Positions 1,011 to 61,074 of a stretch of 64,000 bases of DNA are shown one piece after another. Position 1 is the stretch's first letter, and each line of letters starts with the position of its first letter. The position numbers and the translations under genes were made by a program. The notes under the pieces were generated by a model. That model worked only from the letters and a program-made list of their open reading frames with translations. It was not told where the DNA came from and did no database searches. This DNA is from Haploplasma modicum ATCC 29102 (GTDB lineage: Bacteria; Bacillota_I; Bacilli_A; Acholeplasmatales; Acholeplasmataceae), in assembly GCF_000687835.1 (NCBI RefSeq), contig NZ_JHYB01000005.1:62001-126000 (forward strand). Reading direction: 5' to 3'.

Positions 1011-1559
1011 ATGGAACAAAATAAAATAGCTAATCCAGCACCACTAGGGTTAATTGGATTTGGAATGACAACAATTTTATTAAACCTTCATAATGCAGGA
1101 ATCATACAATTATCAGTTGTGATAGTTGCAATGGGAATTGCACTGGGTGGTCTTGCACAAGTTGTTGCAGGTTTATTAGAATATAAAAGAGGTAATACAT
1201 TTGGAGGAACAGCATTTACTGCATTTGGTTTCTTCTGGTTAAGTTTAGTTACAATTTGGTTAGTAGGGCCAAAACATGTTGTAGCTGATAAAACATCAAT
1301 GGGCTTTTATTTATTATTATGGGGAATTTTCACAACAGCAATGTTTGTGGGAACATTAAAACATAATACAATTTCAAAATTAGTATTTGGTAGTCTTGCA
1401 TTATTATTTTACTTACTTGCAATTGGTGATTTTGCAAACTCACAAACAATAACAACAATTGCTGGTGTTGTAGGAATTATTTCTGGATCACTTGCATTAT
1501 ATGATGCAATGGGTCAAATTATTAATACAGAGTTTGGGAAAGATATTTTTCCTTTATAA
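1011..1559 (+). CDS. satP: Acetate uptake transporter (AceTr/SatP/YaaH family)
   Basis: This 182-residue protein is a membrane protein of about six transmembrane segments. It begins with the family signature NPAPLGLIGFGMT (residues 8-20), the NPAPLGL motif of the GPR1/FUN34/YaaH acetate/succinate permeases. A second conserved segment, GNTFGGTAFTAFGFFW, lies near residues 62-77. Members of the family move acetate or succinate with protons. Length fits the family. The start has a strong upstream purine-rich ribosome binding site. The next gene begins two bases after the stop, so the two are probably co-transcribed. Confidence 0.9.
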   Translation: MEQNKIANPAPLGLIGFGMTTILLNLHNAGIIQLSVVIVAMGIALGGLAQVVAGLLEYKRGNTFGGTAFTAFGFFWLSLVTIWLVGPKHVVADKTSMGFYLLLWGIFTTAMFVGTLKHNTISKLVFGSLALLFYLLAIGDFANSQTITTIAGVVGIISGSLALYDAMGQIINTEFGKDIFPL

Positions 1560-1561
1560 TA

Positions 1562-2077
1562 ATGGAAGATCTAAAGATAAGTTTATTAGATAAAAAACTA
1601 CTGGGCGTTAAAAAATTATATAATAGAGAAGCTTTATTCTTTTATATAATAGATTATAATGAAACATTTTATTTTGGTGTTGAAGAGTTTGATTTTAAAC
1701 TAGAAGGATATCAAATTAGATTGGTTCATGATATTGAAGAAACAAAAATAATTGATAATTTCTCAAGTAAAATAAATGAAAAAGAAGGATTAATCGAAAA
1801 GATTAAACCTTATAAAATTAATTTAGAATCATTTGAGACAATCTTTAATGATTTATATAAAATGGATAAAATTATTTCAATTGAAAGAGAATACCATGAT
1901 GACGATAATTTTTTCTTAATAGGTAAAATAGTTAGTGTAACTTTTGATAGTATTTGGTTTAAAGACTTTAGTGTTGATGGAATTTGGAATGAAGAAATAA
2001 GTATTATTCCCTTTGAACTAATAACTACAGTAAGGTTTGATTCAAACTATATAAACATATGGGAGAAATATATATGA
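1562..2077 (+). CDS. Hypothetical protein, 171 aa
   Basis: I do not recognise this protein with certainty. It is soluble, acidic and has no signal peptide or membrane segment. The last third (residues about 120-170) has a beta-rich run ending GIWNEEISIIPFELITTVRFDSNYINIWEKY. It resembles a short conserved tail seen in several uncharacterised Firmicute proteins, but I cannot name the family. It starts two bases after satP and its stop overlaps the start of the YccF-like gene (ATGA), so translation of the three genes is probably coupled. Confidence 0.6.
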   Translation: MEDLKISLLDKKLLGVKKLYNREALFFYIIDYNETFYFGVEEFDFKLEGYQIRLVHDIEETKIIDNFSSKINEKEGLIEKIKPYKINLESFETIFNDLYKMDKIISIEREYHDDDNFFLIGKIVSVTFDSIWFKDFSVDGIWNEEISIIPFELITTVRFDSNYINIWEKYI

Positions 2078-2430
2078 GATTAATAGGAAATATTTTATGG
2101 ATTATCTTCGGTGGCCTATTTACGGCACTTGGTTGGTTTTTACTAGGACTAATACTTTGTATAACAATTATTTTCATACCTTTTGGTAAACAATGCTTCA
2201 AGTATGCAAAGTTATCACTTGCTCCATTTGGTAAAACCATTGATTTAAATTTTGGGAAACATCCAATAGCTAATGTTATTTGGGTAATATTTGTTGGTTG
2301 GGGAATGTTTCTAACATATATTGGTTCAGGAATTGTACTTTGTATAACAATTATCGGAATACCATTTGGTCTTCAATCATTTAAAATGGCAACACTTGGA
2401 TTATTTCCATTTGGTGCTAAAGTAAGATAA
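2074..2430 (+). CDS. YccF-family (DUF307) membrane protein
   Basis: The protein has 118 residues from the ATG at 2074. I prefer this start to the ATG at 2059 because GGGAG at 2061-2065 sits at proper spacing and because the ATG overlaps the preceding stop (ATGA). The sequence is an internal duplication typical of YccF: RLIGNILWIIFGGLFTALGW...LCITIIFIPFGKQCFK...LAPFG and a second copy NVIWVIFVGWGMFLTYI...LCITIIGIPFGLQSFK...LFPFG. Two hydrophobic hairpins are predicted. Function of the family is unknown. A strong terminator follows. Confidence 0.85.
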   Translation: MRLIGNILWIIFGGLFTALGWFLLGLILCITIIFIPFGKQCFKYAKLSLAPFGKTIDLNFGKHPIANVIWVIFVGWGMFLTYIGSGIVLCITIIGIPFGLQSFKMATLGLFPFGAKVR

Positions 2431-2445
2431 GTTTAATAAACATAG

Positions 2446-2482
2446 ACACTAACTCTATTTATAGAAGAGTTAGTGTTTTTTT
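2446..2482 (+). terminator. Rho-independent terminator after the satP operon
   Basis: ACACTAACTCT (2446-2456) pairs perfectly with AGAGTTAGTGT (2466-2476) around a nine-base loop and runs into seven T residues. Confidence 0.9.
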
Positions 2483-2512
2483 GTATATTGATTGTAGTAT
2501 TTAAAGATAAAT

Positions 2513-2547
2513 AAAAAGATATCAAGTAAATAATACTTAATATCTTT
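2513..2547 (-). terminator. Terminator of the lysine ABC operon
   Basis: On the minus strand AAAGATATTAAGTA (2547-2534) pairs with TACTTGATATCTTT (2528-2515) with one U-G wobble, then a T-rich tail. The wobble only works as RNA on the minus strand, supporting this orientation. Confidence 0.75.
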
Positions 2548-2553
2548 AGTTAA

Positions 2554-3288
2554 TTAGCTATTAAATCTTTTCAAGAACTCTTTTGTTCTTTGTTCTTTTG
2601 GATTATTAAATAATTGTTCAGGACTTCCCTCTTCAGCAATGACGCCACTATCCATAAAAATTATTCTATCTGATATTTCTTTAGCAAAAGCCATTTCATG
2701 AGTTACAATAATCATTGTCATACCAAGCTTTGTTAAGTCTTTAATAACATTTAAAACTTCCCCAACCATCTCTGGATCAAGTGCACTAGTTGGCTCATCA
2801 AAGAGAAGTACTCTTGGCTCCATTGAAAGACTTCTTGCTATTGCGACTCTTTGTTTTTGCCCACCTGATAATGTTTTAACGTCTTGGTGAATAAATTCAC
2901 CCATTCCAACTTTCTTTAAGTTGTTAATAGCAATCTCTGTTGCTTCTTCACGGCTTCTTTTTAAGACTTTCATTTGACTTAAAGTACAGTTGTCTAAAAC
3001 ATTTTTGTTATTAAAAAGGTTAAAGTTTTGAAAAACCATTCCAACTTCACTTCTAAGTAAATTAACATTTCTCATGTTGTTTAAGATTGATAAGTTATTA
3101 TAAATAATTTCTCCACTATTTGGATACTCTAAAAGATTTAAACATCTAAGTAGTGTTGATTTACCACTACCAGAAGAACCAATAATTGAGATAATTTCTC
3201 CTTCAGTAACATCAAAGTTTATGTCTTTTAATACATCATTATTTCCAAAACTTTTTTTCAAATTTTTTATTTTAAATATATTTTTCAT
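2554..3288 (-). CDS. Amino-acid ABC transporter, ATP-binding protein (probable lysine importer)
   Basis: This 244-residue protein is a polar-amino-acid-type ATPase of the GlnQ/HisP class. Walker [10 protein letters not shown] lies near residues 37-45, the Q-loop in VFQNFNLF, the signature LSGGQKQR near 140, Walker [15 protein letters not shown], and the H-loop in TMIIVTHEM. It energises the permease encoded just upstream. It is the last gene of a three-gene minus-strand operon (binding protein, permease, ATPase) behind a lysine riboswitch, which makes lysine the likely substrate. That assignment rests on the riboswitch, not on the ATPase sequence. Confidence 0.92.
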
Positions 3289-3296
3289 AATACCAC

Positions 3297-4304
3297 CTAA
3301 TTTGCACTTGGAAGTTTAACTTCAGGAACTTCAAGGACTTTAGATAAACGTTTTAAGATTGCTGTTATTGTAGAAGTTAAAATTAGATAAATTACAGCAA
3401 CAATAATAAATGGTGGGAATGGGTTTAAATATTTAGCTTGTGCAAGTTGTGCAACCCTAAATAAATCAACAACTAGAATAACAGATAATACTGATGTATC
3501 TTTAATGTTAATAACAAACTCATTACCTATTGATGCCATTGAGTTTTTAATTGCTTGTGGGAAAACAATTGTCATCATTGTTTGGAAATTAGATAATCCA
3601 AGTGATAAACCACCTTCTTGTTGCCCTTTATCAATTGATTCAATACCACCTCTTAATACCTCTGTTAAGTAAGCAGTAGTATTTAGTGAGACAACAACGA
3701 GTGCGGCTACTAAATGGTCCCAATCAACAAATGTCTTACCTCCCCAATATATGATCATCGCTTGAACCATCATTGGAGTACCACGAATAACTGTTACATA
3801 AGTTTTAACAAACCACTTACCAATACTTTTAAAAGTCTTTTTAATAACTCCGTCTTCTGGATAACGTTTTAAAGTAACAATTAAGCTTAAGAAAATAGCA
3901 AAGATAAAACCAATTGTTGTTCCAATTAGTGACAAGTAGAGAGTTGTTCCAATACCTTCTGAGAATTTATGGCCATACTCAATTAATATTTTGCCATAAA
4001 TACTTGTCTCTTTAAATAAAGTACCAATCCATGTAATAAAACTACCAATAACTTGACCAATTGTATAGTAATAAATTTCATTGAAACTAAATATTAATAA
4101 AAGTAAAACTAATATTTGTAAAACAAATCTAACTTTATACCAAACTTTGTCTTTATCTAAGGCTTTATTATAACCATTAAATTTTTTACTAAAGATAAGA
4201 CCTATTGTATTATCTAATAAAAATAAAAATAATCTATATAAACTGACAAATAGGAAGGCAATTGCCTTCCCTATTTGCTTAAATACATTCTTTAAACCAG
4301 GCAT
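3297..4304 (-). CDS. Amino-acid ABC transporter permease (probable lysine importer)
   Basis: The protein has 335 residues. The HisM/GlnP-type permease core is in the C-terminal two thirds: [18 protein letters not shown], then [17 protein letters not shown], and the ATPase-docking EAA-like loop [24 protein letters not shown]. The first about 110 residues form an N-terminal extension with two hydrophobic segments, longer than in most HisM-like permeases. Its ATG overlaps the stop of the binding-protein gene by one base (TAATG), and the ATPase gene starts eight bases after it. Located in the cytoplasmic membrane. Confidence 0.9.
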
Positions 4305-5122
4305 TAATTACCAGCTCTTTCTACTGCAGTATCCATCCAACTATTTCTCATTTCTTGTGTAATAGTTGCTAGTATATTATTAATATCTTCTTTTAGTTCA
4401 TATTCTTTTCTAATACCAATTGAAATTTCGCGGTCTTCATCTAAGACATTAAAGATATTTTCTGTAACGTCTAAAACAATTTTTAATCTACTATCAGCAG
4501 TAACCATTCCTAAAGCAACAGGTTTTTCAACTATTGTAAAATCAGTTCCCCCATTTAAGATACTTGTTGTTATTAGTGGAACTGTATCAGCAACAGGTTG
4601 AACAGTAGCACCATGATTTTCACCTACAAACTCAACTAATTTAGCATATAGTGTACCTTTTTGTCCCATACCTTTAGAACCTCTTAAACCTTCTAAGCCA
4701 GTGATGTTTGCATATTTACCATTAGCTAATACTACAGCAACGTGGTTTGAAGTATAATATGGGTTTGTAAAATCAATTGTTAATTTACGTTCTTCAGTTG
4801 GACTCATACCAGCAATGATTAAATCAATTTCACCTGTTGTAAGTGCTGGAGATAATGAATCCCAAGCAATCATTTTAATTCTTAATTCTTTACCAAGTTT
4901 TTCAGCAACAAACTTAGCAACTTCAACATCATAACCTGCAACATAGGCGTTTCTTTGTCCATGTATTGGGTGGTTATAATCATTTTTTGATGTTTCATAC
5001 CAGTTAAATGGTGGATAATCAGCTTCTAGTCCAACAGTGATATAATCACCACTATTTTTCTTACATCCTACTAGCGTAATTGCTAGTATTATTACCACAA
5101 TTAATGAAAATATTTTTTTCAT
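4304..5122 (-). CDS. Amino-acid-binding lipoprotein of ABC importer (probable lysine)
   Basis: The 272-residue protein starts at 5122 rather than at the further upstream ATG at 5212. The 5122 ATG is followed by a lipoprotein signal MKKIFSLIVVIILAITLVGC with the lipid-modified Cys at residue 20, and AGGAAG sits just upstream. The mature part is a type-II periplasmic binding fold: ITVGLEADYPPFNW, AGYDVEVAKFVAEKLGKEL, LTTGEIDLIIAGMSPTEERK, IDFTNPYY. These are standard polar amino-acid receptor motifs. It captures substrate outside the membrane. The lysine riboswitch directly upstream indicates lysine as ligand and repression when lysine is plentiful. Confidence 0.9.
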   Translation of the reverse strand: MKKIFSLIVVIILAITLVGCKKNSGDYITVGLEADYPPFNWYETSKNDYNHPIHGQRNAYVAGYDVEVAKFVAEKLGKELRIKMIAWDSLSPALTTGEIDLIIAGMSPTEERKLTIDFTNPYYTSNHVAVVLANGKYANITGLEGLRGSKGMGQKGTLYAKLVEFVGENHGATVQPVADTVPLITTSILNGGTDFTIVEKPVALGMVTADSRLKIVLDVTENIFNVLDEDREISIGIRKEYELKEDINNILATITQEMRNSWMDTAVERAGN

Positions 5123-12384: not shown

Positions 12385-14037
12385 ATGAAAGAGACAAACA
12401 AGAGTCAAACTTCAGGAATAGCAATTAAGCTAGAAAATCTTACAAAAATCTTTTATGATAAAAAAGATGGTAGAGAAACAAAAGCTGTTAATGATTTTGA
12501 CGTTTTAATTCCAGAAGGAAAATTAGTGGGCCTTTTAGGACCATCAGGGTGTGGTAAATCAACAACACTTTACATGATTGCGGGACTACATGCACCGACA
12601 AGAGGAAAGATTTTCTTTGGTGATGAAGATGTTACTGAATTATCACCAGAAAAAAGAGGAATTGGTCTAGTATTTCAAAACTATGCCTTATATCCACATA
12701 TGACAATTAGAAAGAATATCATGTTTCCTTTAGAAAACATGAATATTAAGAAAAATGCCATTAAACAAGCATATAAGGAAGCGTACCTATTAGATAGTAA
12801 TAAAGAAGCAACACTTTATTATGAATATAATGATAAATTAGAAAATATAAATTATAAGTATGCAAGATTAGAAAGTGAAGCGAAAACAATTTATAAAGGT
12901 GATATCTTCACTGCAGAATCAGAATTTAAACAAATCAAAAAAACAAAAGACAAAGAACAAATTGAAAAAGCAAAATTAGTTTTAAAGGAAAAACGTGAAA
13001 AAGCACTTGCAGAATTAAATAATTCGGTAAAAGGATTTGAACAAGAATACTTAAAACTAAAAAATGATTTACGTCCAGAAAACTATGAAACTTTATTAAA
13101 AACAATGAAAGAAAATCACAAACTTGTTGTTGATAAGTTTGAATTAGCTAAAAAAGAATATATTGCTAATGCAAATTTTGATAAAACAAATGCAACAGAA
13201 GAACAAAAAGCAAAATTTGCATTAGGGTTAGATAAAATAACACCAGAAAGTATTAAATTAATTAATGAAGCTAAATCACGTAACTATAAACTTGAAATGG
13301 AAGACGCAGTTGTTGAAATGGCAAAACTAGTTGGTATTGAAGATCAATTAGAAAAGAAACCAGCACAATTATCAGGTGGACAACAACAAAGGGTTGCTAT
13401 TGCACGTGCTTTAGTTAAAAAACCTAAAGTTTTATTACTTGACGAACCACTATCAAACTTAGATGCAAGACTTAGACTTCAAACAAGAGAAGAAATTAAA
13501 CGTATTCAAAGAGAAACAGGAATTACAACAATCTTTGTTACACATGATCAAGAAGAAGCTATGTCAATCTCCGATGAAATTATCTTAATGGATTATGGTG
13601 TTGAACAACAAAAAGGTGCACCACAATCAGTTTATGATAAACCAGAAAACTTATTTGTTGCTAAATTCTTAGGAACTCCACCAATTAGTGCATTTGAAGC
13701 AGAATTAAAAGATGGTAAAGTGTATTTAGATGGTAAAGCAGTTTATGAATCAGAAGTTCTTAAAAATGAAAAAAATCGTCCGGTTACACTTGGAATTAGA
13801 CCAGAAGGTTATGAACCAAATCCAAACGGTCCAGTTACATTAAATAATCAATTTACAGAAACAATTGGCCGTGATATCTCAATTGTAGCAAATCACAGCA
13901 AAGCAGAAAAAGAATCTTTCCGAGTAATTATTTCATCAAAAAATAGTGAATTAGGAAATCAAAAAGTAGTAAACTTTGATTTAATTCCTAATAAGGTGTA
14001 CGTTTTTGATAAAGAAAGCGGAAGGAGAATTAATTAA
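12385..14037 (+). CDS. Carbohydrate-type ABC transporter ATPase (MsmK/UgpC class) with large insertion
   Basis: The 550-residue protein is a sugar-importer ATPase: Walker [10 protein letters not shown] at residues 52-60, Q-loop [12 protein letters not shown], signature LSGGQQQR near 328, Walker [26 protein letters not shown]. The C-terminal regulatory TOBE-like part contains [11 protein letters not shown]. Between the Q-loop and the signature there is an extra stretch of about 185 residues (about 125-310), rich in Lys and Glu, probably helical or coiled. It makes the protein far longer than the usual 360-370 residues. Similar insertions are known in MsmK-like ATPases of mycoplasmas. The gene overlaps the next by one base (TAATG) and leads a five-gene set of ATPase, two permeases, binding protein and OB-fold lipoprotein. 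Confidence 0.9.
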
Positions 14038-34773: not shown

Positions 34774-34822
34774 CTTTATGTGAAACCCCTTACACATGGG
34801 ACAAAAAAAAGGAGAAGAAAAT

Positions 34823-36358
34823 ATGAAAAAAATTTTAGGCTTAATAGTAGTACTTGTTACATCTGTATTATTAGTAGCATGTGGCGACAAAAACGTTAGT
34901 GAAGATCTAAAAGAAATTAAAATTTATGGAAATTTTGATACTTTTAATCCATCTGAAGATTATGTCGGAGATTTAATTGAAGAATTAACTGGAGTAAGAG
35001 CAAAATATGACTTCTTACCACAAGATCCAGCAACAGCAGACACTAAATTGTATTTAGATATTGCAGGTAGATCACAGTATCACCTACTTAAATTATCATC
35101 AAATCAATTTAATCAACTAAGATCTGTTAATGCTTTATTAGACATTAAACCATTATTAGAAAAATATGGTCAAAACATCTTAAAATCAGTAGATCAAAAT
35201 ATTTGGAATACTTCATCATTTAATGATGGTATATATGCTGTTCCACAAAAGAATCCAACTGACAATATTAACATGGCATTATTCTTAAGAAAAGATATCT
35301 TTACAAAACATGGTTTAGAGTTACCAGAAACTTTAACAGAATTTAAAGATGTTTTAATCGCATTAAAAGAAAAAGAAGGCGCAAATTTTGTTCCATTCAG
35401 TGCAAGTTCACATGCAATTGATCCAATTAGAGGAGCTTTTGGTATTGTTAAAGATTGGGTAGAACAACCAGACGGTTCAGTTAAATATTGGGCAGAAACA
35501 AAAGAATATAATGATTATGCAAACTATATGAATGAATTAGTAAAAGCAGGAGTTATGCAAGAAGGTTACTTAACAACACCAAATTATGGTAGTTCAAGTC
35601 GTCCAGGTTTACAAAATGGTACAGTTGCTGTTACACTTGATGCATGGTGGAGTGGTAATGGTATTATCAATGGTATTGCAAGTTCAACAGGTAAAACACA
35701 AGAAGAAATTATTGCAAATGCTGGTGATTACTTACACTTTATCCCATCACTAAAAGGTGATGAAAACTATGGTGTTAAAGGTAAAGGTGAAGCAAAAATG
35801 GATTATTCAATCTCATACTTCTTTGCAATTCCACAATACATGTCAAAATATGCAGAAGCAGTAATTAAATGGATGGATAAAAAATTAGAACCAGAAATCT
35901 TTAAACAACTTACAATTGGAGTAGAAGGCATACACCATGAATATGTAAATGGTGAATACTTACCAATATTATCTAAAGAAGGTTCAGATGAAGTTCCATT
36001 CGACGTATTTGCAAAAGCTGACTATTATTTAACAGGAACAAATGCAGATGATTACTCAGAATACTGGAAAGCACGTGCTAGAAAAAATCCTCGTCAACAA
36101 TTTGTTTGGGAACAAATGAACTTAGAATCATACAAACAAGAGTTTGGGGTTTTAGATAAGCTTGGATTAGCACCTGGATTTAGTATTTATGGGGCAAATG
36201 TTGCAAAGATGAAACAAATGTCAGATAACTTCTTAATAGCAAACATCTCTGGTCAAGGAGATAAGATTACTCAGGAACAATTAATTGCAAACTTAATTAA
36301 AGATGCAAAATTAAAAGAGTCAACAACAGAAGTTAATGAATGGTATAAGAAAAATTAA
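34823..36358 (+). CDS. Extracellular solute-binding lipoprotein (LplA/YtcQ-like)
   Basis: The 511-residue protein starts at the ATG at 34823, which follows GGAGAAG and begins the lipoprotein signal MKKILGLIVVLVTSVLLVAC (Cys 20). The frame-extended ATG at 34796 has no such support. The mature part resembles Bacillus LplA/YtcQ-type sugar or oligosaccharide receptors: FDTFNPSEDYVGDLIEELTGV, LSSNQFNQLRSVNALLDIKP, FLRKDIFTKHGLELPETL. It feeds the LplB/LplC-type permeases downstream. No ATPase is in the cluster, so an ATPase encoded elsewhere (MsmK-like) would power it. The presence of nanE suggests an amino-sugar ligand (inference). Confidence 0.88.
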   Translation: MKKILGLIVVLVTSVLLVACGDKNVSEDLKEIKIYGNFDTFNPSEDYVGDLIEELTGVRAKYDFLPQDPATADTKLYLDIAGRSQYHLLKLSSNQFNQLRSVNALLDIKPLLEKYGQNILKSVDQNIWNTSSFNDGIYAVPQKNPTDNINMALFLRKDIFTKHGLELPETLTEFKDVLIALKEKEGANFVPFSASSHAIDPIRGAFGIVKDWVEQPDGSVKYWAETKEYNDYANYMNELVKAGVMQEGYLTTPNYGSSSRPGLQNGTVAVTLDAWWSGNGIINGIASSTGKTQEEIIANAGDYLHFIPSLKGDENYGVKGKGEAKMDYSISYFFAIPQYMSKYAEAVIKWMDKKLEPEIFKQLTIGVEGIHHEYVNGEYLPILSKEGSDEVPFDVFAKADYYLTGTNADDYSEYWKARARKNPRQQFVWEQMNLESYKQEFGVLDKLGLAPGFSIYGANVAKMKQMSDNFLIANISGQGDKITQEQLIANLIKDAKLKESTTEVNEWYKKN

Positions 36359-36988: not shown

Positions 36989-37955
36989 ATGAATCAAGTA
37001 GAAAAAATAGACGAACAAAAAAGTGCAAAAAATAAAAAAATAAAAGAATTCATTGAAAGAAATTCCTTATATTTATTTTTAATACCAGCGCTACTTTTAG
37101 TTTTCGTTTTTAGTTATTTACCGATGTTAGGTACGGTAATTGCTTTTAAAGACTATCAAATCTTTGCAGGTAAAAATCCAATAGATGCTATATTTCAAAG
37201 TAAGTGGGTAGGATTTGAGCATTTTAATAAAATATTCAGTAATCCAGAATTTGGTAGAGCATTAAAAAATACATTAATAATTAGTATATATAAAATTGTA
37301 TTTTTATTCCCAATTCCAATCATAATTGCAATTATGATTACTGATATGAAATCAGCATGGTATAAAAAAAACAATTCAAACAGTAATATATTTACCACAC
37401 TTCTTATCATGGATTGTTGTTACCTCGATATTTATTCAAATATTAGGACCTTATGGTTTAATTAACAACTGGTTAAAAGGTGTTGGTTTAACAAGCAAGT
37501 CAATAGCATTCTTTGGTAATAATGCTTTTTTTAGAAGTCTTACAGTAGTTTCTGCAGGATGGAAAGAAGTAGGGTGGAATGCAATTATTTATATTGCAGC
37601 AATCACAGGGATTAATCCACAACTATATGAAGCAGCAAAAATTGATGGTGCTACAAAAATGCAGCAAGCAATTAATATAACAATACCTTCGATTACAGGA
37701 ACAATTGTTTTATTATTTATTTTAAGAATTGGAGCAATTCTTGACGCAGGATTTGACCAAATATTTAATATGTATTCATATGCCGTATACGAAAAGGGAG
37801 ACATCTTATCAACATTAGTATATCGTTTAGGGCTTGAATCACAACAATATAGCTTTGCAACTGCAGTTGGACTATTTAACTCAGTTGTCGCACTAATACT
37901 TGTTTTAGGTGGTAACTTCATAACAAGAAAAACAATGGATAAGGGGTTATGGTAA
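36989..37955 (+). pseudogene. ABC transporter permease LplB-like, frameshifted in an A8 run
   Basis: The gene encodes an LplB-type permease but is split: the first frame runs to 37465, and from 37372 on the true sequence continues in the +1-shifted frame (TIQTVIYLPHFLSW..., then GWKEVGWNAIIYIAAITGINPQLY, EAAKIDGATKMQQAINITIP) to the stop at 37955. The break is at eight A residues (37364-37371); with seven As the frame is whole and codes for 321 residues, normal for LplB. Everything else, including the EAA loop, is intact, so either this is a recent mutation, a sequencing error, or the gene is read through by slippage on the A run. All other operon members are intact. Confidence 0.9.
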
Positions 37956-37956
37956 A

Positions 37957-38823
37957 ATGTTACAAACAAAAAATGATAAAGTTTTCAGTATTATAACATA
38001 TGTTATAATGAGTATTTTTGGCTTATCAATTATACTGCCATTTTTCAATTTACTTGCAACATCCCTATCTGATCCAGTTGCTGTTTCTAACGGTAAAATC
38101 ACATTTTTCCCAGTAGGTTTTAATATTAGTGCATATAAATATGTTTTCAATAACAAGCAGTTTTGGAATGGTTTTAAATCAACATTATTTATAACAGTAG
38201 TTGGTACATTCTTAAGTTTAATTATTACAACACTAACAGCTTATCCTTTATCTATAAAGAAATTTAAAGGAAGAAAAGTATTTTTAGTTATTTTTATTGT
38301 AACTATGCTTTTTAATGGTGGTTTAATTCCAAACTATATTTTAATTACAGGATTAGGGCTTAGAGATAGTTATTTAGCACTAATATTACCAGGTTTAATA
38401 TCTGTTTATAATATGTTGTTAGTTAAAAACTTCTTTGAAACTCTTCCAGAATCATTAATGGAATCAGCAAAAATTGATGGAGCGGGTGAACTTAGAATAT
38501 TTAAAGATATTTTAATTCCACTATCACTTCCAACACTTGCAACTGTTGCATTATTTTATGCAGTAGGCTTCTGGAACTCATACTTTAACGGTATGCTTTA
38601 TATTTCATCACCAGAGAAAATGCCACTACAAACATATCTACAAACATTGTTAAACATGTCACAAATACCAGCACACGAATTACCACCTCATGTAGCAGAT
38701 AGCTTAACAACAGATTCAATTCGTGCTGCATCAATTTTCACAGCTACAGTACCAATTCTTGTTTTATATCCTTTCTTACAAAGATTCTTTGTTAAAGGAT
38801 TAGTATTAGGATCAGATAAATAA
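37957..38823 (+). CDS. ABC transporter permease LplC-like
   Basis: The 288-residue protein has six predicted membrane segments and the EAA-type loop ESLMESAKIDGAGELRIFKD followed by ILIPLSLPTLATVA. The segment KITFFPVGFNISAYKYVFNN and the end FVKGLVLGSDK are typical of LplC/YtcP. It starts two bases after the frameshifted partner permease and overlaps the next gene by one base (TAATG). Together with its partner it forms the import channel. Confidence 0.92.
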   Translation: MLQTKNDKVFSIITYVIMSIFGLSIILPFFNLLATSLSDPVAVSNGKITFFPVGFNISAYKYVFNNKQFWNGFKSTLFITVVGTFLSLIITTLTAYPLSIKKFKGRKVFLVIFIVTMLFNGGLIPNYILITGLGLRDSYLALILPGLISVYNMLLVKNFFETLPESLMESAKIDGAGELRIFKDILIPLSLPTLATVALFYAVGFWNSYFNGMLYISSPEKMPLQTYLQTLLNMSQIPAHELPPHVADSLTTDSIRAASIFTATVPILVLYPFLQRFFVKGLVLGSDK

Positions 38824-41002: not shown

Positions 41003-41022
41003 ATTAAAATACATTTTTTACC

Positions 41023-41046
41023 AACAAAAATAGTCTCTAATTCGTA
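41023..41046 (+). promoter_or_regulatory. Possible ECF-sigma promoter of the sigma/anti-sigma cassette
   Basis: AAC at 41023-41025 (in CCAACA) and CGTA at 41043-41046 are 17 bases apart, close to the -35 AAC / -10 CGT pattern of ECF-type promoters. The TATTAT overlapping CGTA has no sigma-A -35 upstream. This would allow autoregulation by the ECF factor encoded in the same operon. Inference from a short motif. Confidence 0.4.
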
Positions 41047-41077
41047 TTATATGTGAAGAAAGAAGGGAGACTTAAAA

Positions 41078-41941
41078 ATGAAAAAATATATTTTAGGTTT
41101 AATAGTAACAATTGGATTACTAGTATTAGTTGGTTGTGGAGGAACAAAGAGTAAGGTAGATGTTAGGAGTGAAGAAAATATTTATGCAATCTCAGCTGTT
41201 AGTGGTGTTGAGTCTATTTTAAGCAATAATAGTTTAATTACTTTAAATAGTAAAAATAAGGATATGGAAGATGTTGAATTTAATGATGAAAACATGGATA
41301 TCATGTTAGCATTCTTAAATGATAAGGCATTTAAAGTAGAAGTAAAAGAATCAGATAAAGAAGAATATAAGTTCTTAATTAATATTACAATAAATAATGA
41401 TCAAGTATTCGATTTTTATTATAATGAGTCATTAATTAAAGAAGAAATTGATGAAGAAGAAATTGAACAAAAATATAGTATAAATGGTATTATTTTAAAT
41501 AATGATATAATGTATACTGTAGAAGGATTTAAAGAAATTGAAATAGAAAATGAAGAAAATGAAGTAGAAGAAGAATTTTCTTTAGACTTAATAATTTCTT
41601 TAGACGAAAATAATTATACAAGATTAAAATATGAAGTTGAAACTGAAACAGAAGATAATAAAACAGAATTAGAAAAAGTTTTTAAAACTCATTTCTTTAA
41701 AGATGGTAAAATGGTTAAAAAAATTCATTTTGACTTTGAAATGGAAGATAATGATTTAGCAATTAAACTTCAAGTTTTTGAAGCAAATGAAATTAAGATT
41801 TATCGCTTAAAATTAAATGATGATAAAGAAAGTGGAGTAATTAAATTCTTTGTTAAAGGTGAAGAACTAATTAATAGAGGTGAAAGAGAATTTATTATTG
41901 TTACAGACGAATCAGGAGTAATCACATATCAGTATAAATAA
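41078..41941 (+). CDS. Lipoprotein related to the outer domain of the neighbouring anti-sigma-like protein
   Basis: The 287-residue lipoprotein has the signal MKKYILGLIVTIGLLVLVGC (Cys 20). The mature part is acidic, rich in Glu, Asp, Asn and Ile, and looks beta-rich. Several stretches line up with the C-terminal part of the protein at 42475-43422. For example, SAVSGVESILSNNSLITLNS and FDFYYNES here match YTIGGIQLASSNSNKISLSS and YVLYYNEK there, and INGIILNNDIMYTVEG matches MKGIVIYNNTIYNFYS. No known domain is recognised. It is the first gene of a three-gene operon with an ECF sigma factor, which suggests a role in envelope sensing or as a sigma target (inference). Confidence 0.75.
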   Translation: MKKYILGLIVTIGLLVLVGCGGTKSKVDVRSEENIYAISAVSGVESILSNNSLITLNSKNKDMEDVEFNDENMDIMLAFLNDKAFKVEVKESDKEEYKFLINITINNDQVFDFYYNESLIKEEIDEEEIEQKYSINGIILNNDIMYTVEGFKEIEIENEENEVEEEFSLDLIISLDENNYTRLKYEVETETEDNKTELEKVFKTHFFKDGKMVKKIHFDFEMEDNDLAIKLQVFEANEIKIYRLKLNDDKESGVIKFFVKGEELINRGEREFIIVTDESGVITYQYK

Positions 41942-41956
41942 TTAGGAGAATATTAA

Positions 41957-42478
41957 ATGGACTTAGTAGAAGCAATAGAAAAATTAAAGAAGAAAGATAA
42001 CGAAGCTTTTGAATATATTTATAACTATACTAAGTCTAGTGTATATGGAATAATAATTAATATTGTTAAAAGCAGGGATGTAACAGAAGATCTTATGCAA
42101 GATACTTACATTCAAGTTGTTAAATCAATTAATAGCTATAATAGTAATTATAAGTTTTCATCATGGGTTATTATGATTGCTAGAAATAAAGCAATTGATT
42201 ATTACAGAAAAAACAAGAAAGAGATGCTTATTGATATTACGGAAAGTGAGTATCTCTTTCCTAATGTAAAAAGTGATGTTACAAATGAGCTAAATGCCAA
42301 TTATTTTTTATCATTACTTGATGATAGCGAAAGAGAGGTAGTAATTCTTTATGCAATGGAAAATTATAAGCATAAAGAAATTGCTAAAATCTTAAATAAA
42401 CCAGTAGGAACTATAACTTGGCTATATAATAAAGCAATGAAGAAAATGAGAGATAATATGAAGGAGGAGAAATTATGA
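41957..42478 (+). CDS. ECF-family RNA polymerase sigma factor
   Basis: The 173-residue protein has only sigma regions 2 and 4, as ECF factors do. Region 2 (about 10-85) includes RDVTEDLMQDTYIQVVKSI and FSSWVIMIARNKAIDYYRK. Region 4 (about 110-165) is a helix-turn-helix: LDDSEREVVILYAMENYKHKEIAKILNKPVGTITW. It starts 15 bases after the lipoprotein gene, and its stop overlaps the next start (ATGA). The downstream single-pass membrane protein is probably its anti-sigma factor. Confidence 0.92.
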   Translation: MDLVEAIEKLKKKDNEAFEYIYNYTKSSVYGIIINIVKSRDVTEDLMQDTYIQVVKSINSYNSNYKFSSWVIMIARNKAIDYYRKNKKEMLIDITESEYLFPNVKSDVTNELNANYFLSLLDDSEREVVILYAMENYKHKEIAKILNKPVGTITWLYNKAMKKMRDNMKEEKL

Positions 42479-43422
42479 AAGATAAAGAGATATTAAAAAT
42501 AATTAAATCAGATATCGAAAAAGAAACACCTAATATTTTAAATAAAATTGATCTATCTTCTATAAAAATAGAAGAAGAAATAGTTTCGGAAAAAAGAAAA
42601 TTTAATATTTTCTTTAGCTTATCATTAATTACAACTGCCCTAATTATCGGATTTTTTGTAGGGTTATTAATATTTAAACCAAATACAGAAATTAAGAACC
42701 CTATTAATATTAGCGTAACTAAAAAGGATGAAATAGTAGTTGATTATACAATTGGTGGAATACAGCTTGCATCAAGCAATTCTAACAAAATAAGCTTATC
42801 AAGTATTAAGGTTGATGATATTGATTCATTTCATAAATATATTAACATTATTGAAGATTACATGAGCTTAAGTACTAATACAATAAAAATAACTAAAAAT
42901 CATGGTGATAACTTTAATTATATGTATAAGATGGAAGTTTCAAACACTAATGTTTTTGGAGTAGCAACATCATATGTCTTATATTATAATGAAAAACGTG
43001 AAACCGAAGATGATGAAGAAGAAAAGGAAATGAAAGGGATCGTTATTTATAATAATACCATCTATAACTTTTATTCTGAAGAAGAAATAGAAAAAGATGA
43101 AAATGAGATTAAAGTTACTATTTATCAAGATATTAAATCAAATAAAATAGTTATTAATAAAGAGTTAGAAGAAGATGAATATTCATTTTCATATAAATTA
43201 TATATAGCTAATAAATTAGTTACCAAAATTGAATTAAAAGCAGAAGAAGATGAAGTTAAGTTTAGTATAAACAAAGATAAATTAAAGACTGAATATACTT
43301 TAGAAGTTATTGATAAACTAAATTATCAAATACATTTAGATAGCGAGATGTTTTTACTTAAATTAGATTTAGAAAATAAAAAATATATTTATCTATTAGA
43401 TGATATTGAGATAATTAAATAG
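42475..43422 (+). CDS. Putative membrane anti-sigma factor with lipoprotein-like outer domain
   Basis: The 315-residue protein has a cytoplasmic N-terminus of about 43 residues (KDKEILKIIKSDIEKETPNIL...), one membrane segment (about 44-67, NIFFSLSLITTALIIGFFVG) and an outer domain of about 245 residues. The layout and the start overlapping the ECF gene by four bases fit an anti-sigma factor. The N-terminus has no zinc (ZAS) motif that I can see. The outer domain resembles the lipoprotein two genes upstream. A terminator follows. Function is inferred from context and topology. Confidence 0.72.
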   Translation: MKDKEILKIIKSDIEKETPNILNKIDLSSIKIEEEIVSEKRKFNIFFSLSLITTALIIGFFVGLLIFKPNTEIKNPINISVTKKDEIVVDYTIGGIQLASSNSNKISLSSIKVDDIDSFHKYINIIEDYMSLSTNTIKITKNHGDNFNYMYKMEVSNTNVFGVATSYVLYYNEKRETEDDEEEKEMKGIVIYNNTIYNFYSEEEIEKDENEIKVTIYQDIKSNKIVINKELEEDEYSFSYKLYIANKLVTKIELKAEEDEVKFSINKDKLKTEYTLEVIDKLNYQIHLDSEMFLLKLDLENKKYIYLLDDIEIIK

Positions 43423-43427
43423 ATATT

Positions 43428-43463
43428 ATACCAAATGAAATACTCATTTGGTATTTTATTTTA
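43428..43463 (+). terminator. Terminator of the ECF cassette
   Basis: ATACCAAATGA (43428-43438) pairs with TCATTTGGTAT (43444-43454), then a T-rich stretch. Confidence 0.88.
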
Positions 43464-58686: not shown

Positions 58687-59379
58687 ATGTATATTTACGG
58701 AAAAAACATTGTAAAAGAAGCAATAATAAACAAAAGAACAATTTATGAACTATATTTAGATAATAAGTTTAATGATAATAACTTTTTAAATTTATTAAAA
58801 GAACATAATATAAAATATAGTTTTAAAGATAAAGGAGAGTTAAATAATCTCTCAGAAAATGGTGTACATCAAGGTGTAGTTGCTGGGATCAAACCATATG
58901 AATATAAAAACTTAGAAGATATCTTAGATAGTTCAAAAAGACAAAGATTTTTAATTCTAGATGAAATAACTGATCCACATAATCTAGGAGCAATTTTAAG
59001 AACTGCAGAAGCAACAAATCTTGATGGAATTATTATGAGTAAGAAACATCAAGTTCCACTAAATGGAACGGTTGCTAAAGTATCAAGCGGAGCAATTGAA
59101 CATGTTAATGTAATCTTAGTTGGAAATATTAATCAAACAATTACCAAATTAAAAGAAAATAATGTCTTAGTAGTAGGAACAAGTGATAAAGCAACTAATA
59201 GTTATTTAGAAATACCTAAAGATTTATCGGTTGCGATAATTCTTGGAAATGAAGGGACTGGCATTCGCCATCTAGTTAAGGAAAACTGTGATATCTTAGT
59301 TAAAATACCAATGTACGGTAAAGTAAACTCATTAAATGTTAGTGTTGCAGCAGCCTTAATGTTATATGCATCGTTATAA
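58687..59379 (+). CDS. rlmB: 23S rRNA (guanosine-2'-O-)-methyltransferase RlmB
   Basis: The 230-residue SPOUT methyltransferase has the usual N-terminal rRNA-binding part (MYIYGKNIVKEAI...VHQGVVAGI) and the three motifs LDEITDPHNLGAILRTAEA, ILGNEGTGI and IPMYGKVNSLNVSVAAAL. It methylates G in the 23S peptidyl-transferase region in known homologues. It overlaps the sigH-like gene by 14 bases. Confidence 0.94.
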   Translation: MYIYGKNIVKEAIINKRTIYELYLDNKFNDNNFLNLLKEHNIKYSFKDKGELNNLSENGVHQGVVAGIKPYEYKNLEDILDSSKRQRFLILDEITDPHNLGAILRTAEATNLDGIIMSKKHQVPLNGTVAKVSSGAIEHVNVILVGNINQTITKLKENNVLVVGTSDKATNSYLEIPKDLSVAIILGNEGTGIRHLVKENCDILVKIPMYGKVNSLNVSVAAALMLYASL

Positions 59380-59854
59380 TGATTATGAACTAATTTATTT
59401 AGTTCAAAATGAAAACTGTGAAGAGGCATTTAAAAAGCTCTTAGGGAAATATAAACTAATGATCTATAAAAATATTTATCAATATAATCCTGATAAATTC
59501 TATTTTGATGATTATCTTCAAGAAGGGTTAATGTTAATGAATAAAGCAATTAACATTTTTGAAGAAAGAAGAGGCAAAACATTTACTAGATTTTTTGAAC
59601 TAATTTTAAAAAGAAAAATCTTTGAACTAAACAGAAAAAAACCATTATATGAAATATATGATGATTTTGAGATGTTTCCTGATAAAGAACAAAGTATAGA
59701 AGAGATCGACACAGAACATTTAACAAAATTTGAGAACATTGTATTTAATAAATATTTTGTTGAAAATCAAAATATTTCATATATTGCTGAAGTTGAAAAC
59801 AAATCGGTAAAACAAATATATAATGCAATTTATCGAATAAAAAATAAAATTTAA
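59366..59854 (+). CDS. sigH: SigH-like RNA polymerase sigma factor
   Basis: The 162-residue protein is a small sigma-70 factor: region 2 has YLVQNENCEEAFKKLLGKY, FDDYLQEGLMLMNKAINIF and FTRFFELILKRKIFELNRK. Region 4 near the end is a helix-turn-helix (YIAEVENKSVKQIYNAIYRIK). In Bacillus sigH lies between rlmB/yacP and rpmG-secE-nusG, exactly this place, so I call it SigH by synteny. Its role in an organism like this is unknown. Confidence 0.82.
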   Translation: MHRYNDYELIYLVQNENCEEAFKKLLGKYKLMIYKNIYQYNPDKFYFDDYLQEGLMLMNKAINIFEERRGKTFTRFFELILKRKIFELNRKKPLYEIYDDFEMFPDKEQSIEEIDTEHLTKFENIVFNKYFVENQNISYIAEVENKSVKQIYNAIYRIKNKI

Positions 59855-60106: not shown

Positions 60107-60532
60107 ATGGCTATTAAAGAAAAAGAAATTGAAAAAAAGAGTAAATTAAGAGAAATCTTAATGACTGAATATCGAGGAGAAAATTTAGTTCTTCTTATAT
60201 TAGCAGTTTTATCTGCAGCATTGTCACTGATCATTATTATTAATAAAGGACCAATCTCAATTGATGAATCATTCCCAATCTTAGGAAAGAGAACAAATCA
60301 ATTAATATTTGCTTGGGTACTATTTGGTATCTCAATGTTAGGTGTAGGTTTAGTTGCAGCACCATTTGTCGCTCCTGCTATTCCAGAACTTAAGAAAATT
60401 AGTTGGGCAAAATGGCCAGAGTTTTTAGATCACAGTGTTAGAGTATTAATATTTATTTTATTATTTATTTTTGTAATTTTTTCATTTGATATTATTGTAT
60501 TAAAACTTCATGACATTATAGGTATGAAATAA
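60107..60532 (+). CDS. secE: Preprotein translocase subunit SecE (long form)
   Basis: The 141-residue protein has the SecE core at its end: FVAPAIPELKKISWAKWPEFLDHSVRVLIFILLFIFVIFSFDIIVLKL, with the conserved amphipathic KKISWAKWPE helix and last membrane segment. Two more membrane segments (about 30-47 and 65-85) precede it, unlike the one-segment SecE of about 60 residues in Bacillus. It stabilises SecY. The stop overlaps the nusG start (TAATG). Confidence 0.92.
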   Translation: MAIKEKEIEKKSKLREILMTEYRGENLVLLILAVLSAALSLIIIINKGPISIDESFPILGKRTNQLIFAWVLFGISMLGVGLVAAPFVAPAIPELKKISWAKWPEFLDHSVRVLIFILLFIFVIFSFDIIVLKLHDIIGMK

Positions 60533-61074
60533 TGGCTGAAAGAAAACGTTGGTACATTGTTCAAACATATTCTGGTCAAGAAAACTCAGTTAAAAAAGAC
60601 TTATTAAGAAGAATTGACAGTATGGGTATGAATGATTTAATTTTTGAAGTTATCGTACCAGAAGAAACAATAGTTGAAACAAAAGCAGACGGGACAGAAA
60701 AAGAAAAAATTAAACAAATGTTCCCTGGATATGTTTTCGTTCAAATGATCGATAAAGAAGATTCATGGTTTGTTGTTAGAAATACACCAAAAGTTACAGG
60801 TTTCCTAGGATCATCAGGTGGTGGAACAAAACCAGTTCCGCTAGAAGATGCTGAAATGGATGCTATTTTATATAAGATAGGTGTTAAACAAAAACCAACA
60901 TTTGAACACTACTTAAACAAAGAAGTTGAAATTATTAGTGGTACATATAATGGCCAAATTGGTAAAGTATCACAAGTTAATGCTGATCAAAATATCGCGA
61001 TAGTAGAAATTCAGTTTTTTGGTAGAGCAACTCCAGTAGAAGTTGAAATCGAAAGTCTTAAAATTTTAATCTAA
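60532..61074 (+). CDS. nusG: Transcription termination/antitermination protein NusG
   Basis: The 180-residue protein has the NGN domain (KRWYIVQTYSGQENSVKKDL, MFPGYVFVQM, VRNTPKVTGFLG) and a C-terminal KOW domain (about 120-180, VEIISGTYNGQIGKVSQVN). It links RNA polymerase to the ribosome and affects pausing. Conserved neighbour of secE. Confidence 0.97.
   Translation: MAERKRWYIVQTYSGQENSVKKDLLRRIDSMGMNDLIFEVIVPEETIVETKADGTEKEKIKQMFPGYVFVQMIDKEDSWFVVRNTPKVTGFLGSSGGGTKPVPLEDAEMDAILYKIGVKQKPTFEHYLNKEVEIISGTYNGQIGKVSQVNADQNIAIVEIQFFGRATPVEVEIESLKILI

Follow-up and report, generated by a model that had tools for sequence, protein, structure and literature searches.

In Escherichia coli, the ECF sigma factor SigE is encoded together with a membrane anti-sigma factor, RseA, and an extra envelope protein, RseB, which is soluble and periplasmic, is not homologous to the RseA outer domain, and damps sigma release. 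Cpx is a two-component system in which CpxP, made by the response, acts back on the sensor but is no copy of the CpxA sensor domain. The sensor domain of BlaR1 resembles class D beta-lactamases, and both enzyme and sensor are well characterized. SigI-RsgI of Bacillus subtilis and Clostridium thermocellum involves an anti-sigma factor with a cytoplasmic N-terminus, a single membrane pass, and an outer domain; RsgI_M, a domain of RsgI, is reported to cleave itself (PMC12203970). In Streptomyces coelicolor SigE-CseA, a lipoprotein modulates an ECF sigma response, though it works via a two-component system, and neither an anti-sigma factor nor a common domain is described there (PMC8999054). More generally, a co-encoded anti-sigma factor and an autoregulated promoter of the AAC/CGT type are typical of ECF sigma factors, though not universal (PMC8103513).

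The locus described here, from Haploplasma modicum, shares with SigI-RsgI a putative N-in single-pass anti-sigma factor with an outer domain, and parallel cassettes in related genomes carry RsgI_M itself, including the N-P self-cleavage motif, as RsgI does (PMC12203970). It differs in that the sigma factor is of ECF type rather than a SigI, the outer domain at this locus does not match RsgI_M, and the operon additionally encodes a lipoprotein with the same outer domain as the anti-sigma factor. As in SigE-RseA-RseB, an ECF sigma factor, a membrane anti-sigma factor, and an extra envelope protein are encoded together; here, however, the extra protein is a lipoprotein homologous to the anti-sigma outer domain. 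The likeness of CpxP to the feedback proposed below lies in a response-made extracytoplasmic protein acting on a sensor, and BlaR1 likewise has a sensor domain homologous to a class of effectors, but belongs to no sigma system, and its effector is not a lipoprotein copy encoded in a sigma operon. Autoregulation by ECF factors, RsgI_M anti-sigma factors, and lipoproteins that act on sigma responses are already known; a limited search of the open-access literature found no ECF cassette, in two domain versions, whose lipoprotein duplicates the anti-sigma sensor. How membrane anti-sigma factors perceive signals is poorly understood, above all in bacteria without a cell wall, and regulators of extracytoplasmic function in this lineage are hardly described in the literature searched.

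The locus

The window is a 64,000-nt stretch of the 1.22 Mb genome of H. modicum ATCC 29102 (GCF_000687835.1, contig NZ_JHYB01000005.1, forward-strand positions 62,001-126,000), and the coordinates below are window positions. As the preliminary description had it, an ECF sigma gene lies between genes for a lipoprotein and an N-in single-pass membrane protein, and all three ORFs are found where they had been placed:

41021-41046, + strand: ECF promoter, with a -35-like CCAACAA (41021-41027), a 15-nt spacer, and a -10-like CGTA (41043-41046)
41063-41069, + strand: Shine-Dalgarno-like AAGGGAG 5' of the lipoprotein start, read from the sequence
41078-41941, + strand: lipoprotein, 287 aa, with signal peptide, lipidated Cys20, and a beta-meander domain homologous to the anti-sigma outer domain (profile alignment, AlphaFold2)
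41957-42478, + strand: ECF sigma factor, 173 aa (Pfam Sigma70_r2 and r4_2)
42475-43422, + strand: third gene, N-in single-pass membrane protein, 315 aa (ORF)
42475-42609, + strand: predicted cytoplasmic anti-sigma segment, residues 1-45, homologous to N-termini of RsgI_M-type anti-sigma factors in related cassettes
42613-42672, + strand: transmembrane helix, residues 47-66 (AlphaFold2 helix; hydropathy of homologues)
42679-43419, + strand: predicted anti-sigma outer sensor domain, residues 69-315 (hhalign to the lipoprotein family)
43428-43454, + strand: intrinsic terminator-like hairpin with T tract at the operon end (terminator scan)

The start of the third gene overlaps the sigma stop codon by 4 nt. 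The lipoprotein signal peptide ends in LVGC, with Cys20 invariant in two family alignments. The terminator scan returned two terminator-like sites against 0.2 expected; both represent the same 43428-43454 palindrome, one per strand. Searches of Pfam and NCBIfam gave no credible match for the lipoprotein or for the membrane protein, and PADLOC gave nothing relevant.

The sigma factor and its putative anti-sigma factor

The sigma protein matches Sigma70_r2 (3.8e-15, residues 22-88) and r4_2 (8e-11, residues 118-164); it thus contains regions 2 and 4 only, joined by a short linker, as is characteristic of ECF (group IV) sigma factors. Its nearest NCBIfam model is SigY, with a score below the model cut-off, and the nearest solved chain is annotated as SigW. 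A single-protein search of the genome found no second relative. The context is also typical of ECF genes: the downstream gene overlaps, an AAC-N17-CGTA element that is conserved in relatives lies 5' of the operon, and autoregulation is predicted. Elsewhere in the window, a further sigma-like ORF (59366-59854, SigH-like by eye) lies shortly upstream of SecE-like (60107-60532) and NusG-like (60532-61074) ORFs.

The third protein has a short N-terminus, a single transmembrane helix, and a large outer domain. Class II (CnrY-like) anti-sigma domains comprise two short helices that bind sigma2 and sigma4; for the cytoplasmic segment of the third protein, which carries a conserved IK..I....P.IL.KI pattern, AlphaFold2 predicts one long, clear helix (residues 3-17) and, at 27-29, a short turn. 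The zinc anti-sigma motif (Hx3Cx2C, class I) is missing, as had been observed from the sequence at the outset, because the protein contains no cysteine anywhere; absence of Hx3Cx2C alone does not rule out a class I zinc anti-sigma domain (PMC7406223).

It is conceivable that this is simply a membrane protein co-transcribed with an unrelated sigma gene, as its failure to match any curated anti-sigma model would allow. This appears very improbable: in every cassette among the first 27 related sigma loci, the equivalent gene overlaps or abuts the sigma gene, and the protein is N-in and single-pass, with a conserved short cytoplasmic segment that it has in common with RsgI_M-type proteins at the same position. 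A profile of the window-type cytoplasmic segment recovers 21 RsgI-type proteins at E<0.01 among 1,208 ORFs. The initial association of the third protein with sigma control is strengthened by this homology to RsgI_M-type anti-sigma factors in the same operon position. Its identification as a putative anti-sigma factor is therefore well supported by position and homology, with anti-sigma activity as the predicted function. At two loci (L104, L111), related sigma genes are followed by anti-sigma-like proteins with another outer domain, which matches neither of the two versions described below.

Homology of the paired outer domains

When the two window proteins are compared directly, BLASTP returns a marginal E=0.033 at 20% identity, and homology could therefore not be established from the window alone. 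Acidic, beta-rich proteins of an AT-rich genome might resemble one another by composition only, and both proteins are indeed rich in D, E, K, and N. Comparison at the family level refutes this explanation. Profiles of the lipoproteins and of the outer domains, built from 28 sequences each, give a full-length, colinear alignment of 289 columns (hhalign probability 100%, E=2.5e-60). Among all ORFs of 35 loci, other lipoproteins included, each profile recovers members of the opposite family and nothing unrelated; the few extra matches look like stand-alone, partial, or truncated family copies. A lipoprotein profile from which the window's membrane protein was excluded finds that protein in its own genome at E=1e-11. 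Used as separate queries, the lipoprotein and membrane protein lead to the same cassettes, often matching each other's counterparts, and direct pairwise comparison gives E<1e-5 in 31 of 45 related cassettes, with identities of up to 44% and E down to 1e-69. The 96.5% DNA identity found in one pair of the RsgI_M version, discussed below, is equally at odds with a purely compositional likeness. These comparisons establish that the lipoprotein and the outer domain of the membrane protein are homologous.

The blocks previously paired by eye (ISAVSGVESILSNNSLITLNS with VDYTIGGIQLASSNSNKISLSS, FYYNE with LYYNE, and SINGIILNNDIMY with EMKGIVIYNNTIY) are the same blocks that the family alignment pairs. 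Of the profile and structural comparisons proposed in the preliminary description, the former was positive as given above; the structural side yielded AlphaFold2 models, built from separate alignments, in which helices at the N-terminus lead into a meander of some 14-15 strands in both proteins (about 14 in the lipoprotein model; pLDDT 83, pTM 0.76). A long beta meander evokes the RseB/LolA-like fold, an unclosed beta-barrel with a helical lid, and such a fold was considered; among the 50 best Foldseek matches listed for each model there was no RseB, LolA, or LppX. Foldseek found no PDB match at E<=0.001 for either model, nor did a family-profile sequence search of the PDB find one. As the models have no significant PDB relative, no ligand is suggested. 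A third weak match of the lipoprotein profile in the H. modicum genome, C2:470946, was rejected as an ABC-transporter lipoprotein (MetQ-like by its neighbors) matching over the first 100 positions only.

Recurrence and a second version with RsgI_M

We define here a shared-sensor ECF cassette as a sigma operon in which the lipoprotein and anti-sigma factor carry homologous domains, as they do at the window locus. Related cassettes were drawn from Acholeplasmatales, Izemoplasmatales, and neighboring lineages; this group includes wall-less bacteria (PMC10868615). At each of the first 27 related loci, the sigma gene is followed by an anti-sigma-like gene, with a lipoprotein gene first or last in the operon; the design, whose three-gene order was earlier proposed as something to be sought in relatives, is thus found beyond this genome. 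From public genomes, 80 sigma loci were retained: 25 with the order lipoprotein-sigma-anti-sigma, 11 with sigma-anti-sigma-lipoprotein, one with sigma-anti-sigma followed by two lipoproteins, one lipoprotein-sigma near a contig end, 15 with sigma-anti-sigma, and 27 without a window-type partner, many of which carry an RsgI_M-type anti-sigma factor instead. Dozens of Acholeplasmatales/Izemoplasmatales-type genomes carry the cassette. It is present in the complete genomes of Tenericutes bacterium MO-XQ and Mycoplasmatota strain zrk2 (L110, L118). The window-type domain was matched in 115 of 296 genomes drawn from the class, a figure that includes matches with E near 1e-4, some of which are probably signal-peptide matches. 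Copies of the domain with no recognized sigma gene beside them occur at L092 (5356-7146), L089 (5734-7407), and L081 (4840-5679); two of these belong to larger proteins of about 560-600 aa.

Other related sigma genes adjoin pairs in which both lipoprotein and anti-sigma factor contain RsgI_M (PF23750), for example at L108 and L123. The window's third protein does not match PF23750, and no RsgI_M was found in the H. modicum genome. Among 20 regions with two close RsgI_M matches, one is mixed; each of the other 19 is a cassette of lipoprotein, ECF sigma, and anti-sigma genes, in either order, in which the lipoprotein and the anti-sigma factor both carry RsgI_M. This proportion is no population estimate because the regions were picked for two adjacent domains. 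The RsgI_M lipoproteins keep the DINPS motif. Since the cytoplasmic segment is homologous across both versions, the outer domain was exchanged while the predicted sigma-binding part was kept.

For all cassettes examined together, both proteins are window-type in 45 and RsgI-type in 23; five combine a window-type anti-sigma factor with an RsgI_M lipoprotein (L164, L167, L170, L172, L311), and none shows the reverse. Of 108 sigma loci, 27 have an anti-sigma gene, window-type or RsgI-type, with no lipoprotein gene of the two types next to it. The mixed cassettes imply that strict like-with-like contact is not required everywhere and that a matched pair is not obligatory. The sigma tree holds only 2-3 independent switches of domain type, too few for a statistical proof that the types switch together.

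Homogenization of the paired domains

When 26 cassettes are placed in one tree, the Acholeplasmataceae-type lipoprotein and anti-sigma domains form one clade (100/99), apart from both kinds of domain in the other lineage. The sigma genes split cleanly by lineage (100/100), yet a single lipoprotein clade is rejected (AU p=0.0026), which rules out, for this set, one ancient duplication with two clean descendant clades; if only the Acholeplasmataceae-type subset is taken, a single lipoprotein clade withstands the test (p=0.11). The RsgI_M tree has the same pattern, with starred branches forcing at least four changes.

One case is found at L302 (nt 1341-4508), where lipoprotein and anti-sigma ectodomains flanking an intact sigma gene are 96.5% identical in DNA over 1,049 columns. 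The identity begins shortly after the lipid anchor in the lipoprotein and after the membrane helix in the anti-sigma factor, an apparent recent gene conversion inside one operon. The L302 anti-sigma ectodomain is 71% identical to the L301 lipoprotein and 59% identical, over a longer stretch, to the L301 anti-sigma factor; because the L302 sensor is closer to the lipoprotein, the lipoprotein copy probably overwrote the sensor. Judging from these trees and alignments, the paired domains are homogenized within lineages in both versions, a pattern that could stem from selection to keep the domains matched or from neutral conversion between repeats lying close together.

Promoter and targets

Regions upstream of the cassettes contain CCAAYAAAA, a spacer, and then CGTATA or CGTTTA. 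A scan for AAC-N15-18-CGT performed at chance level, and the fuller CCAAYAA element was then read from the upstream regions. In the form CCAAYAA-N(13-17)-CGTW, it lies within 300 nt upstream of 38/45 window-type cassettes and of 0/391 control ORFs, with a spacing of 15 in 44 of 50 cases; the AAC-17-CGTA promoter first noted at this operon is real in position and contained in this longer element. The site at 41021-41046 is the sole match within the window, where 0.04 would be expected by chance.

A wider regulon in H. modicum, which the preliminary description hoped to find through further AAC-N17-CGTA promoters, did not materialize: the strict pattern yields one further site in the genome, inside a 460-aa ORF, and the relaxed pattern yields six matches against seven in the reversed control, leaving no credible site beyond the operon. 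As the element is credibly present once in the genome, the operon is probably its own main target, and the module appears to control mainly itself in this genome. Other genera may have further targets. Across several species of one related genus, the element lies upstream of a conserved FAD oxidoreductase-like gene and of a ~750-aa protein (L227, L229, L231, L233, L238, L240; L228, L230, L235), which are possible conserved regulon members. In several genomes, it precedes short membrane proteins of about 160-174 aa (L193/L247, L213, L215, L217).

A proposed self-tuning sigma module

The architecture of the cassette—gene order, outer-domain homology, promoter and its near-uniqueness, recurrence, the RsgI_M analogue, and homogenization—is firmly supported by these sequence comparisons. 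We propose, with a probability of roughly 0.58, that the cassette is a self-contained, autoregulated ECF module in which the lipoprotein serves as a second sensor copy that damps the response through the ligand or through contact with the anti-sigma factor. The membrane protein would hold the sigma factor via its short cytoplasmic segment and sense the cell surface via its outer domain; relief would probably involve intramembrane proteolysis by an M50 protease, one of which is encoded in the genome. Freed sigma would transcribe its own operon, whose main non-regulatory product would be the lipoprotein, with its second copy of the sensor domain, anchored on the same outer face. That copy may then bind the same ligand, or the anti-sigma factor domain-to-domain, and so damp or end the signal. 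Because it would be made in proportion to sigma activity, carries the sensor domain, and resides in the same compartment, the lipoprotein seems well placed to compete for an inducer or to cap the sensor. In this model, we infer the anti-sigma activity, the proteolysis, the ligand, the physical contact, and the negative sign of the feedback. The ligand competition or feedback-loop closure suggested earlier for the lipoprotein is compatible with all observations. Against the model stand the five mixed cassettes and the 27 loci where the anti-sigma gene has no lipoprotein gene beside it; homogenization could also be neutral.

The main rival, which we consider unlikely, would make the lipoprotein an effector that captures, blocks, or repairs whatever the anti-sigma sensor detects, with feedback arising indirectly as the signal is removed; sensor and effector would then share a domain because both recognize the same thing, much as the BlaR1 sensor domain resembles class D beta-lactamases. 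In favor of this, the lipoprotein is the sole non-regulatory gene at the sole credible promoter copy in this genome; common ligand recognition would also explain homogenization, and the mixed cassettes pose less of a problem if no contact between the two proteins is needed. RsgI_M, however, is known from RsgI as a self-cleaving signaling domain and not as a binding effector (PMC12203970), the DINPS motif is kept in the lipoproteins that carry it, and Pfam, Foldseek, and the PDB profile search revealed no signature of an enzyme or of a binding function in the window-type domain.

A damping lipoprotein has also to be weighed against a co-receptor or activator that pairs with the anti-sigma ectodomain and, on stress, helps to dissociate it or expose it to proteolysis, giving positive feedback. 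RsgI is proposed to signal when its self-cleaved parts come apart (PMC12203970). A homologous partner could favor such a step through strand exchange, and the two proteins have compartment, operon, and domain type in common. This seems quite improbable, as no sequence feature favors a positive sign and cassettes without an adjacent lipoprotein exist.

The recurrence of the pairing with two unrelated domains suggests an undescribed feedback or ligand-sharing design. More broadly, and tentatively, since we put it slightly short of an even chance, Mollicutes-related Bacilli may possess a general type of ECF operon that mainly makes a lipoprotein version of its own anti-sigma sensor. Such operons would have arisen independently with two or more unrelated domains, the beta-meander and RsgI_M among them, and recurrent gene conversion would keep the lipoprotein matched to the sensor; the lipoprotein would set the gain of the switch either through contact between the domains, with strand exchange, or by sharing a ligand. 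That one design occurs with two unrelated sensor domains, with one copy apparently overwriting the other, points to a functional link between sensor and lipoprotein. It offers a testable idea, a sigma switch that adjusts its own output by releasing a second version of its sensor. The self-cleavage of RsgI_M is already under study, which makes this domain a ready experimental handle, and the promoter motif allows regulon prediction across many uncultured genomes.

Other observations in the window

Between an intact binding lipoprotein (34796-36358) and a partner permease (37957-38823), a sugar ABC permease (LplB-like by eye; 36989-37955) is broken up into two ORFs, 36989-37465 and 37659-37955, that do not share a frame, and is either a frameshifted gene or a sequencing error. 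An ABC ATPase at 12385-14037 (MalK/MsmX-like by eye) carries a charged insertion of ~170 aa between the Q-loop region and the ABC signature.
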